Shown: piece by piece, positions 28,337-64,000 of the stretch
How positions within the stretch are numbered: position 1 is the first letter of the stretch
How the letters are laid out: each line of letters opens with the position of its first letter
NCBI RefSeq assembly: GCF_023806465.1
Contig: NZ_JAMSLS010000002.1
Location: 1 to 64,000 of the forward strand
Source of the DNA: Thermomicrobium sp. CFH 73360
Lineage (GTDB): Bacteria > Chloroflexota > Chloroflexia > Thermomicrobiales > Thermomicrobiaceae
Direction: 5' to 3'
Length of the DNA: 64,000 bases
Notes under the pieces: generated by a model
What the model was told of the DNA's origin: nothing
The model's database searches: none
What the model saw: the letters and a program-made list of their open reading frames with translations, nothing else
Translations under genes and position numbers: made by a program

Positions 28337-28358
28337 GTGGAGGAAGAGCTGAGGATTG

Positions 28359-28450
<92 letters not shown>

Positions 28451-28461
28451 CCGTCAGGCCA

Positions 28462-59082: not shown

Positions 59083-59192
59083 CGCTCATCCAGAGCGGTG
59101 GAGGGAACGGCCCGAGGAAGCCCGGCAACCAGCGCAGGCCACTGCGCCAGGTGCCAATGCCGGCGGAGCGAAAACGCTCCGCACGATGAGCG
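59083..59192 (+). ncRNA. SAM-I riboswitch (S-box)
   Basis: The conserved S-box aptamer is present: CTCATCCAGAG, GGTGGAGGGAACGGCCCGA, GAAGCCCGGCAACC, AGGTGCCAATGCC, and the P4-like GGAGCGAAAACGCTCC. P1 is closed by CGCTCATC (59083-59090) and GATGAGCG (59185-59192). Binding of S-adenosylmethionine should favour the terminator 22 bases downstream and switch off metX. Confidence 0.97.
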
Positions 59193-60550: not shown

Positions 60551-61552
60551 TCAGGCAGGCAGTTCGAGAGTCGGCAGCAAAGCCGCACCAAACCGCACTG
60601 CGTCAATAGTGTCCGCGATCAGCGCGCTGGCCGTCGGTGCTGGGCCGGCCCCAGGACCGTAGAGGACGACCGTCCCGACCCGGTCACCAGTTAACTCGAT
60701 CGCATTGAGGTTCAAGCGGACATGCGCCAGAAGGTCACTCCCCGGCACGAAGACGGGCTGCACGCTCAGGTGCCAACTCCCATCGAAGAGTTCTGCCTGG
60801 GCAATCAGCTTCATCGCCCCGCCTCGTGCCCGCGCATCGAGAATTTGGTCTGGAGTGACCGTGGTGATGCCTCGCCGTTCGACGTAATCAGGTCGAATAT
60901 GGCGCCCGGCAGCAAGTGACGCGAGAATACTCAATTTGTAGGCCGCGTCGTACCCCTCGACGTCCGCCGTAGGATCCGGCTCGGCGTAGCCGAGCCGCTG
61001 CGCCTCCCGCAACGCTTCTTGATAGGGCATTCCTTCTTCCGCCATCACTGTGAGGATGTAATTGGTCGTTCCATTCACAATGCCACGGATGCGGTAGATC
61101 CGGTTCACCATGAGCAACTGCCGTAAGCTCGCCATCAAGGGAATTCCTGCACCCACACTCGCCTCAAAGAGCAGCGCCCGCTGATGTCGCCGTGCCGTGT
61201 CGACGAGCTCGGCAAAGTGCTTGCTTAACGCCTCCTTGTTCGCCGTCACGACGTGTTTCCCCGCCGTCAAGGCGCGTTTCAGATAGGTCGCTGCCGGCTC
61301 TTCCCCACCCATCGCTTCCACGACGACTGCTACGGTGGGGTCTTCCAGAATCGGATCGATCGACGTTGTCGCTGCCCACTCTGGCAATCCTGCCTGCACC
61401 ACACGCTCCGGATGCCGAGCCAACCCCCACCGAACCTCAAGCGCGAATCCGGTTCGCTGTGCCAGGGCTTCACGTTCTGCGGCAATTGTGCGAAGAACAG
61501 CACTCCCAATTGTGCCTACCCCAAGTAAAGCTATCCCGACTGTCTGCATCAT
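60551..61552 (-). CDS. hom: Homoserine dehydrogenase
   Basis: This 333-residue enzyme reduces aspartate semialdehyde to homoserine, the branch point to Thr and Met. Visible: GIALLGVGTIGSAVLRTI (nucleotide site), VTANKEALSKHFAELVD, FEASVGAGIPLMASLRQLL, IRGIVNGTTNYILTVMAEEG and GYAEPDPTADVEGYDAAYKL (catalytic Asp and Lys). It lacks the C-terminal ACT domain, so feedback by Thr through that domain is not expected. The start is the first of two tandem ATGs (61552), 4 bases after a GAGGAAG element. It is divergent from asd. Confidence 0.95.
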   Translation of the reverse strand: MMQTVGIALLGVGTIGSAVLRTIAAEREALAQRTGFALEVRWGLARHPERVVQAGLPEWAATTSIDPILEDPTVAVVVEAMGGEEPAATYLKRALTAGKHVVTANKEALSKHFAELVDTARRHQRALLFEASVGAGIPLMASLRQLLMVNRIYRIRGIVNGTTNYILTVMAEEGMPYQEALREAQRLGYAEPDPTADVEGYDAAYKLSILASLAAGRHIRPDYVERRGITTVTPDQILDARARGGAMKLIAQAELFDGSWHLSVQPVFVPGSDLLAHVRLNLNAIELTGDRVGTVVLYGPGAGPAPTASALIADTIDAVRFGAALLPTLELPA

Positions 61553-61573
61553 TGCGCTTCCTCTCGTTCCTCC

Positions 61574-61602
61574 TTGACCTTCGTCCGGTTGCCTGGTACA
61601 GT
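61574..61602 (+). promoter_or_regulatory. Promoter of the asd attenuator transcript
   Basis: TTGACC (61574-61579), a 17-base spacer and TACAGT (61597-61602) give a good sigma-70 promoter. Transcription near 61609 leaves a 230-base leader before asd. The divergent hom start lies just outside. Confidence 0.75.
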
Positions 61603-61666
61603 CACCCCAGGCGCTGACAGGGTAGGCGAGCCCGAGCGCCTCGCGCAACGGGAAGGACCGCGAGAG

Positions 61667-61750
61667 ATGAACGCCGTGCGCTCAGCCACGCGGACAACGA
61701 CAGGGACTACCGCGACGCGCTGCGCCGGCGTGCGCTCGGGTAGCCCGTAA
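61667..61750 (+). CDS. Threonine-rich leader peptide upstream of asd
   Basis: ATG 61667 opens a 27-codon frame ending at TAA 61748-61750. Codons 8-17 read T-R-T-T-T-G-T-T-A-T, seven Thr in ten, using ACG, ACA, ACT and ACC. GGAAGGA (61651-61657) lies 9 bases before the ATG. The frame is followed by overlapping antiterminator and terminator helices, then asd. It is inferred to be a ribosome-mediated attenuation peptide sensing charged tRNA-Thr, analogous in logic to enterobacterial thrL but unrelated in sequence. Confidence 0.8.
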   Translation: MNAVRSATRTTTGTTATRCAGVRSGSP

Positions 61751-61806
61751 TCGCGCGGTCAAACTCGAGCGAACGCCGGCAGGGGTCTCATCCTCTGCCG
61801 GTTTTG
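61671..61806 (+). promoter_or_regulatory. Threonine attenuator: mutually exclusive antiterminator and terminator
   Basis: Segment 2 (61724-61738) can pair with segment 3 (61766-61780) at 14 of 15 positions, forming an antiterminator. Segment 3 includes the first bases of the terminator arm CCGGCAG (61776-61782), which pairs with CTGCCGG (61795-61801) before TTTTG. Segment 1, ACGCCG (61671-61676), can pair with CGGCGT (61726-61731) inside segment 2. A ribosome stalled at the Thr codons would cover segment 1 and free segment 2. One reaching the stop would mask segment 2 and allow termination. Confidence 0.78.
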
Positions 61807-61837
61807 TCGTTTAGAGGACGTGAGAAGGGAGGACGCA

Positions 61838-62890
61838 GTGGCCGAACGGATCGATGTGGCGATCTTGGCAGCAACGGGGAGTGTCGGGCAACGCTTCGTC
61901 CAGCTCCTCGCCGGGCACCCCTGGTTCCGGATCGCGGAACTTGTAGCGAGTGATCGCTCCGCCGGCAAACGCTATACCGAAGCAGTCAACTGGCGGATCA
62001 GTGCGGCGCCCCCCGAAGGGGTTCGTAACCTCGTGGTGAAGCACATCGAGGGACCGATCGAGAGCCCCATTGTCTTCTCAGCCCTCCCCGGCGGTGTGGC
62101 GGGAGAGATCGAGGAAGCTCTTGCTGCCGAGGGCAAGAAGGTCTTCACCAACGCACGCGACCACCGGATGGATCCTGATGTCCCCTTGCTTATTCCAGAG
62201 GTGAATCCCGATCACGCACGCGCCATCGAGCGGCAACGGCAAGTGCGCGGTTGGCGTGACGGCTTCATTGTGGCGAACCCGAACTGTTCAACAATTCATC
62301 TCGTCCTTGCGCTCAAACCCATCTATGACGCCTTTGGGATCGAGAAAGGGATCGTCACGACACTCCAGGCTGCTTCTGGTGCTGGTTACCCCGGTGTTCC
62401 CTCACTCGACCTCATCGATAATGTGGTGCCGTTCATCAGTGGTGAGGAAGAGAAGATCGAAGCGGAGTCTCGCAAGATTTTAGGAACGTGGGCTGATGGA
62501 ACCTTCCAAGACGCACCACTCACCCTGAGCGCCCATTGCAACCGTGTCCCGGTTCGCGACGGGCACATGGAGACGGTCAGCTTGAAGCTCAGTCGTCCGG
62601 CAACGCCAAGCGAGATTGCTGAGGTCCTCCGCTCGTTCCGTGCCCGGCCGCAGGAACTCGAGCTTCCGAGCGCACCACGGCAGCCAATTGTCGTGTTGGA
62701 TCAGCCCGACCGGCCTCAACCGGTCCTTGACCGCGATGCCGAGCGCGGTATGGCGTCGGTCGTCGGTCGTATCCGCCCCTGCTCCGTGTTCGACATCCGG
62801 TTCGTCGTGCTGGGGCACAATACCATTCGCGGTGCGGCAGGCGCGTCAGTGCTCAATGCGGAACTGTTCTATCGAGAGGGCTGGCTCTGA
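61838..62890 (+). CDS. asd: Aspartate-semialdehyde dehydrogenase
   Basis: This 350-residue enzyme makes aspartate semialdehyde, the shared precursor of Lys, Thr, Met and Ile. Visible: VAILAATGSVGQRFVQLL (NADP site), ELVASDRSAGKRY, the active-site Cys in IVANPNCSTIHLVLALKP, LQAASGAGYPGVPSLDLIDN, EEEKIEAESRKILG and the catalytic His in AHCNRVPVRDGHMETVSL. The pattern matches the archaeal/fungal-type Asd. GTG 61838 follows GGGAGG. It is the structural gene downstream of the threonine attenuator. Confidence 0.96.
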   Translation: MAERIDVAILAATGSVGQRFVQLLAGHPWFRIAELVASDRSAGKRYTEAVNWRISAAPPEGVRNLVVKHIEGPIESPIVFSALPGGVAGEIEEALAAEGKKVFTNARDHRMDPDVPLLIPEVNPDHARAIERQRQVRGWRDGFIVANPNCSTIHLVLALKPIYDAFGIEKGIVTTLQAASGAGYPGVPSLDLIDNVVPFISGEEEKIEAESRKILGTWADGTFQDAPLTLSAHCNRVPVRDGHMETVSLKLSRPATPSEIAEVLRSFRARPQELELPSAPRQPIVVLDQPDRPQPVLDRDAERGMASVVGRIRPCSVFDIRFVVLGHNTIRGAAGASVLNAELFYREGWL

Positions 62891-62940: not shown

Positions 62941-64000
62941 TTACACGCGAACCGGCTCCGATTCAGGAATCCGCGCCGCAATTTCTTCCCGCGTCACGAG
63001 CGGATAGGACAGGCTATCAGCGAGGGCAAGCCATGACGCCTCGATGATGTTTGTGGATGAGCCGACAGTGTTCCAACTGCCGTGCGCGTCCCCTGAGCGA
63101 ATCCAGACGCGCACCTTCGCCCCTGTACCATGGTGGTCATCAAGCACGCGTACCTTGTAGTCCTCAAGTTCCACTGCGGCGATTTCAGGATAGAACTCCT
63201 GCAAAGCCTTCCGCGTTGCTTGATCCAGCGCGTTCACTGGGCCGTTCCCCTCAGCGGCCGTGTGGAACACCTGATTCCCGATGCGCAACTTCACCATCGC
63301 CTCAGCCAGCATGCCACGGCCATTGCGGTACTCGGTCAGAACTGTATAGTCAAGCACCTCGAACGGTGGCCGATAGTCCGGTAAGTTGCGCCGGATAAGA
63401 AGCTCAAGCGAGGCATCGGCATCCTCGAACCAGTACCCTTGGAACTCCAGCTCTTTAATCTGTTCCAGCACCCGCCGCACGACATCCGGCTTGTCTCCGA
63501 GCTCAATCCCAAAGCTGCGTGCCTTCACCACAATATTGCTGCGCCCGCTGAGCTCGCTGACCAGGACGTGCCGTGTGTTCCCAACGACTTCCGGAGGGAT
63601 GTGCTCATACGCCGAGGGATGTTTGGCGATCGCGTTGACATGCAGTCCTGCCTTGTGCGTAAAGGCAAAAGCGCCCACGAACGGTAGCCGCGGATCGTGG
63701 GTGAGATTCGCCACCTCAGCGACGTAGCGCGACGTCTCGGTCAGCTTCCCCAGGTGCCCCGGTGGCAAGCACCGATAGCCCAACTTGTACTCGAGGATCG
63801 GAATCACCGAGCAGAGATTCGCGTTGCCAATCCGCTCGCCCAATCCGTTCATTGTCCCCTGGACGTGTGTTACACCCTCAAGGACCGCTGCGATCGTATT
63901 CGCCACTGCCAACTCGCAATCGTTGTGCGTGTGGATCCCGACTGTACAAGAAACCGTCTTGAGCGCATGACGCACTGCCCGCACAAGGGGATCAGTCAAC
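62941..64000 (-). CDS. cimA: Citramalate synthase / isopropylmalate synthase family (5' end outside window)
   Basis: The C-terminal 353 codons are present. Visible: VGIHTHNDCELAVANTIAAV (metal-binding HxH), VQGTMNGLGERIGNANLCS, THKAGLHVNAIAKHPSAYEH and SELSGRSNIVVKARSFGIEL. The C-terminal regulatory domain follows (MVKLRIGNQVFHTAAEGNGP, then DYKVRVLDDHHGTGAKVRVW). The domain pattern matches CimA, which makes (R)-citramalate from pyruvate and acetyl-CoA for isoleucine, better than LeuA. The stop TAA is at 62943-62941. The N-terminal catalytic part lies beyond the right edge. Confidence 0.9.
   Translation of the reverse strand, partial: LTDPLVRAVRHALKTVSCTVGIHTHNDCELAVANTIAAVLEGVTHVQGTMNGLGERIGNANLCSVIPILEYKLGYRCLPPGHLGKLTETSRYVAEVANLTHDPRLPFVGAFAFTHKAGLHVNAIAKHPSAYEHIPPEVVGNTRHVLVSELSGRSNIVVKARSFGIELGDKPDVVRRVLEQIKELEFQGYWFEDADASLELLIRRNLPDYRPPFEVLDYTVLTEYRNGRGMLAEAMVKLRIGNQVFHTAAEGNGPVNALDQATRKALQEFYPEIAAVELEDYKVRVLDDHHGTGAKVRVWIRSGDAHGSWNTVGSSTNIIEASWLALADSLSYPLVTREEIAARIPESEPVRV

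Follow-up and report, generated by a model that had tools for sequence, protein, structure and literature searches.

A predicted threonine-sensing transcription attenuator upstream of asd in Thermomicrobium and its relatives

How is the synthesis of aspartate-semialdehyde dehydrogenase adjusted in Thermomicrobium, and what is the role of the short threonine-rich reading frame and the GC-rich hairpin that lie between the asd promoter and the asd gene? In the window, i.e. the whole stretch of 64,000 nucleotides of Thermomicrobium sp. CFH 73360 that was analyzed, asd (61838-62890, + strand, GTG start; TIGR00978, E 8e-137; NF006416, E 1e-142) is flanked by the divergent homoserine dehydrogenase gene hom (60551-61552, - strand; NF004976, E 6e-110) and by the convergent citramalate synthase gene cimA (62941-63999, - strand), which runs off the window. 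The in-window part of cimA matches TIGR00977 with E 2e-124 and the whole gene in the genome with 2.4e-207, above the family cut-off; the identities of asd, hom and metX are those of their NCBIfam profiles. Because hom is divergent, there is no upstream gene on the + strand that would need a terminator at the position of the leader hairpin. Asd also feeds lysine and methionine. A SAM riboswitch (59083-59192, + strand) precedes metX, so that the methionine branch is under separate control next to the presumably threonine-controlled asd; a TPP riboswitch is present further away in the window (28347-28455, - strand).

The intergenic region starts with a near-consensus promoter, in agreement with the original prediction. 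TTGACC (61574-61579) and TACAGT (61597-61602) are separated by a 17-nt spacer with an extended TGG element, and this sigma-70-like promoter (61574-61602, + strand) matches the consensus at 9 of 12 positions. It is the sole promoter-like match within 61400-62000, where 0.1 such matches are expected, and transcription of asd is predicted to start near 61609. The ribosome site that had been proposed is also present as a purine-rich region at 61651-61666 (+ strand; GGAAGG at 61651-61656 and GAGAG at 61662-61666). The leader ORF was originally read as a frame of 27 codons from ATG 61667 to TAA 61748-61750, i.e. MNAVRSATRTTTGTTATRCAGVRSGSP* (61667-61750, + strand), with seven Thr in codons 8-17 and use of all four Thr codons. 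This composition is confirmed in the sequence: the codons ACG, ACA, ACG, ACA, ACT, ACC and ACG occupy positions 8, 10-12, 14, 15 and 17 of this frame (61688-61717), corresponding to seven Thr per ten codons. None of 1000 dinucleotide shuffles of 61603-61837 exceeded five, and the leader is alone among the short ORFs on both strands of the window in having at least six Thr per ten codons. The relatives do not favor the original start codon. All six genus members share GTG 61676 and, 9-10 nt ahead of it, a purine-rich SD sequence, whereas only three have ATG 61667. For this reason, we regard GTG 61676 as the better start, and the leader peptide probably has the sequence VRSATRTTTGTTATRCAGVRSGSP* (61676-61750, + strand).

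Downstream of the leader stop codon lies the GC-rich hairpin of an intrinsic terminator (61775-61802, + strand; 11 pairs formed by segments 3 and 4) with a T-rich tail to ~61812 (TTTGTCGTTT). The terminator was predicted as found, except that the distance from the leader stop is 24 nt and not 26 nt. Segment 2, the 5' arm of the antiterminator, is inside the leader ORF (61724-61738, + strand; GCCGGCGTGCGCTCG), and segment 3, the 3' arm, is at 61766-61780 (+ strand; CGAGCGAACGCCGGC). Upon recomputation, the two segments pair at 14 of 15 positions, as had been noted, and positions 61775-61780 of segment 3 are shared with the 5' arm of the terminator, giving an overlap of 6 nt. In the minimum-energy fold of the untranslated leader, a candidate segment 1 (61671-61681, + strand; ACGCCGTG) pairs with 61722-61731, including ACGCCG at 61671-61676 with 61726-61731. 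This pairing could allow the proposed competition between 61671-61676 and the antiterminator, although the sequence of segment 1 is kept in only five of six genus members; in other genera, 1:2 pairing takes a different form, and a local hairpin adjoining the Thr run is possible. The fold of 61660-61805 has z = -3.0, and none of 200 shuffles was equally stable. A chance origin of the leader ORF and of the fold is excluded.

Based on this anatomy, we suggest that the asd leader controls its gene by ribosome-mediated transcription attenuation in response to charged tRNA-Thr, and we assign this reading a probability of roughly 0.9. In this model, RNA polymerase would start near 61609, and a ribosome would begin to translate the leader, probably from GTG 61676. 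With abundant Thr-tRNA, this ribosome would pass the seven Thr codons, reach TAA 61748-61750 and mask the 3' part of segment 2. As a consequence, segment 3 would pair with segment 4, and transcription would stop at ~61805. When Thr-tRNA is scarce, the ribosome would stall in 61688-61717, i.e. upstream of segment 2, and segment 2 would pair with segment 3 before segment 4 is made. As a result, the base of the terminator would be taken up in the antiterminator, and the polymerase would read into asd. If the leader is not translated, segment 1 would pair with segment 2 and the terminator would form, making "off" the predicted default state. In this scheme, we infer the coupling of transcription and translation, the stalling of the ribosome, and termination and its strength. 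Because Asd also feeds the two other branches, a switch at asd that responds to threonine only would need leaky termination.

A comparison of related Thermomicrobia, which had been named as the way to check the prediction, bears on this model in several ways. We located asd in 56 of 61 relatives, and the compared set consists of 23 readable asd upstream regions, including the one described here, from 10 genera in two families, f1 (the family of the window, which includes Thermomicrobium, Thermalbibacter and Sphaerobacter) and f2. In each of the 23, the promoter is followed by a leader ORF with Thr or with Thr and Ile codons, a terminator and a long antiterminator are present, and the leader stop is 25-33 nt ahead of the GGCAG of the terminator. 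Thus, the Thr run, the spacing, the antiterminator pairing and the promoter are all kept, and column conservation over the 23 sequences is highest in TTGAC and TGnTAnnGT. In the ten codon positions preceding the switch, Thr accounts for 102 and Ile for 25 of the 230 codons (127 together), with the leader of genus g4 having just three Thr codons ahead of the switch. A comparison of the window with relative G004 reveals what is conserved in each part. In the ten pre-switch codons, there are seven changes, all in the third position and synonymous, and no nonsynonymous change, whereas segment 2, formed by the bases after the Thr run, has a single difference. These two patterns argue that the Thr run is preserved at the codon level and segment 2 at the RNA level. 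When a covariance model of the switch was run on 158 genomes of the class, it matched ahead of asd in 24 genomes of f1 and f2 (E 1e-10 to 1e-22); 23 of these 24 genomes trained the model, and the matches demonstrate presence but are not independent proof.

The two alternative folds were computed with the ribosome placed according to the general attenuator footprint, and the stalled state was modelled by removing the RNA upstream of the switch in the absence of segment 4. In the stalled state, segments 2 and 3 form an antiterminator of some 20-26 pairs in each of the 23 sequences; a ribosome at the leader stop leads to the terminator in every one of them. Several full-length equilibrium folds have both hairpins coexisting in shortened form. 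The 2:3 helix also covaries. When segments 2 and 3 were swapped between genera, the average energy was -23.2 kcal/mol compared to -33.9 kcal/mol for own partners, and none of 20,000 permutations was as good; this result stands when the ends with the invariant GCCGG are trimmed or when each genus is represented by a single species. In the antiterminator alignment, 26 cells are doubly changed vs 8.6 after shuffling, the covariation score is 0.336 vs at most 0.096 in slid controls, and the RNAalifold consensus is the antiterminator helix and not the terminator. Covariation of both helices had been proposed as a check; it is borne out for 2:3, but in the 3:4 terminator stem none was detected above the control. 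This stem is near invariant, and the lack of a signal is explained by its having hardly any variation. Altogether, the conserved anatomy, the 2:3 covariation and the two folds support the attenuator interpretation.

Among the readings that compete with attenuation, the one that fares best, and that we nevertheless consider unlikely, is that the leader peptide controls asd mainly via translation of asd, mRNA stability or Rho rather than via an intrinsic terminator. The U tract of the terminator is indeed imperfect, being interrupted (TTTTGTCGTTT), and asd starts only 35 nt past the hairpin. Moreover, the antiterminator in family f2 overlaps the terminator stem by just two or so pairs, which makes the strength of switching there uncertain. 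Against this reading, the hairpin and T-rich tract are retained in all 23 sequences, and the asd ribosome-binding site (GAAGGGAGG; 61824-61832, + strand) is part of neither fold. Less probable still is a metabolite riboswitch or T-box that fortuitously contains a Thr-rich frame. Its appeal lies in the riboswitches nearby, such as the one ahead of metX, and in a GC-rich 5' leader hairpin (61609-61660; AGGCGC...GACAGGGTAGGCGAGCCC...GCGCCT) that is strongly kept inside the genus. However, this 5' part is not kept across genera, the Thr run is conserved by codon and not by base, and a search of 61560-61840 against Rfam at gathering and relaxed thresholds (to E = 10) returned no relevant family, i.e. 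no riboswitch, T-box or amino-acid leader family, including RF00506 Thr_leader. Finally, that the ORF encodes a functional small protein with incidental hairpins is equally improbable; while the frame is conserved over two families, the peptides are alike only in their Thr/Ile composition and in the C-terminal part, which the RNA segments dictate, with sequence and length varying freely.

If the leader is an attenuator, does it sense threonine only? The Thr run agrees with the predicted threonine sensing, but the leaders outside genera with citramalate synthase carry Ile codons as well. Citramalate synthase allows isoleucine to be made without threonine. Genera g1, g3, g4 and g5 have a CimA that scores above the family cut-off, whereas g2, g6 and all genera of f2 have none above it. 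The ten pre-switch codons include 0-1 Ile in the CimA-bearing genomes and 2-3 in the others, with no overlap (two-sided exact p = 0.0095 at the genus level). In the asd tree, the CimA-bearing genera form just two separate lineages (g1, g3 and g4; and g5) and, therefore, the link is based on few independent events; in a window of 12-15 codons, the Ile counts of the two groups overlap. These data are suggestive of a correlation in which Ile codons adjoin the switch only where CimA is missing. As a second discriminator, ilvA was uninformative because paralogues are present everywhere. The link between Ile codons and CimA would offer a case of evolving regulatory specificity that is open to direct testing with reporters.

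The original prediction placed the element on asd. This is correct for f1 and f2, but the element is not specific to asd. In families f3-f5 of the same order, asd is downstream of lysC, and a Thr/Ile leader and a terminator precede lysC-asd; lysC was identified by the aspartate kinase profile in G057 and by the KFGGTSV start in the others. In most cases, these leaders have an overlapping antiterminator, while in G024 the leader is present with no overlapping antiterminator by the criterion used. In families f6-f14 of the class, no leader was seen ahead of asd, and none was found before thrC and lysC in this genome and in the Sphaerobacter-like genomes G007 and G009. In other classes, a Thr leader and a terminator precede lysC in 2 of 20 sampled loci, and one of the two (L264) has an overlapping antiterminator. 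A third case comes from a groundwater Chloroflexi bin (L085), and both L264 and L085 are plausible isolated cases. Among these distant candidates, L261, with a Thr run and a terminator before lysC, was not counted because it has no antiterminator overlap.

Leader-peptide attenuation is textbook biology, with E. coli and related bacteria as the best-known cases. As judged from sequence, it is well supported that the asd leader joins this known type of regulator in an unexpected lineage. The closest counterpart is thrL of the enterobacterial thr operon (RF00506), whose short leader likewise includes Thr and Ile codons and offers a choice between a 2:3 antiterminator and a 3:4 terminator, and which controls early genes of the aspartate family. 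However, the asd leader does not match RF00506, it precedes asd or lysC-asd and not thrABC, and in CimA-bearing genera it has Thr codons without adjacent Ile codons. The trp and ilvB attenuators of Actinobacteria also combine a peptide containing regulatory codons with GC-rich terminators in high-GC genomes (Seliverstov 2005, PMC1262725); in that phylum, control at the RNA level was not found for threonine biosynthesis (PMC1262725), and a weak thrL is listed before thrS in Streptomyces lividans (PMC8079986). The ilvB-OMG and ilvB motifs resemble the asd leader as uORF-containing RNAs with branched-chain and Thr codons in varied phyla, but they are found at ilvB and not at asd or lysC (PMC10272879). 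Naville and Gautheret stated in 2010 that no leader-peptide system was known outside Proteobacteria and Actinobacteria before their own case in Firmicutes (PMC2965389), and a 2013 survey, in which 24 lineages including five Chloroflexi genomes were scanned, suggested a gamma-proteobacterial origin of amino-acid attenuators (PMC3766115). In line with the initial view that such leaders are little described in Chloroflexota, we found no description of attenuation in Thermomicrobium, Sphaerobacter or Chloroflexi/Chloroflexota in the open-access literature that was searched. A widely conserved and covarying threonine attenuator in Chloroflexota would argue that such attenuators arose independently or much earlier, and it predicts that transcription and translation are coupled in the host organisms.

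Similar leaders are present at other genes. The switch model gave weak matches (E 3e-4 and up) before the DAHP synthase gene in this genome, on another contig, and in other genera; since this first covariance model has 11 pairs and consists mostly of sequence, weak matches were checked by hand. In the DAHP synthase leader peptide, MGCVSLQHQAWFAYYFSPPALLAGHRVLKR*, Trp, Phe and Tyr codons immediately precede a GCCGGCG segment. The leader also contains the CGCCGGC segment that matches it and a terminator of the form GCAGAGG...CCTCTGC, and it can adopt the alternative folds seen in the asd leader. At locus L193 (G000, contig C37, about 1040-1200), these codons occur, for example, in QAWFAYYFSPPALLAG. 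DAHP synthase leaders with a terminator and an overlapping antiterminator occur in many genera and are also present at L196, L197, L202, L204, L207, L217, L228, L237, L240 and L241. We regard the DAHP synthase leader as a putative attenuator that responds to all three aromatic amino acids. For DAHP synthase, control by a leader peptide has a precedent in AroR of Corynebacterium glutamicum aroF, which has Phe-Tyr-Phe (PMC11802643); the leader described here has Trp, Phe and Tyr, and its switch part resembles the asd element. The likeness of the asd and DAHP synthase leaders may stem from common descent or from convergence on a GC-rich solution.

We speculate that Thermomicrobiales, and perhaps Chloroflexota widely, have an attenuator scaffold of their own that arose separately from the leaders of Proteobacteria and combines one shared switch with exchangeable codon cassettes. 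The choice of cassette would follow how metabolism is wired, Ile codons having been dropped where citramalate synthase frees isoleucine synthesis from threonine; we rate this tentative idea as slightly short of an even chance. The common switch would consist of GCCGGCG...CGCCGGC plus GCAGAGG...CCTCTGC, and the cassettes would be Thr or Thr/Ile in leaders of asd or lysC-asd and Trp/Phe/Tyr in those of DAHP synthase. A similar leader and terminator are also present before pheS at L198 and L229 in genus g3 and at L232 in genus g4, where the leader peptides are His-rich (SHHVHFSPPALPVG, QFHHHRWPALP) and have no Phe run. At L222 (G010, contig C53, - strand), a Thr-rich short ORF and a GCAGAGG terminator precede a gene that is apparently glutamate synthase or a related amidotransferase.
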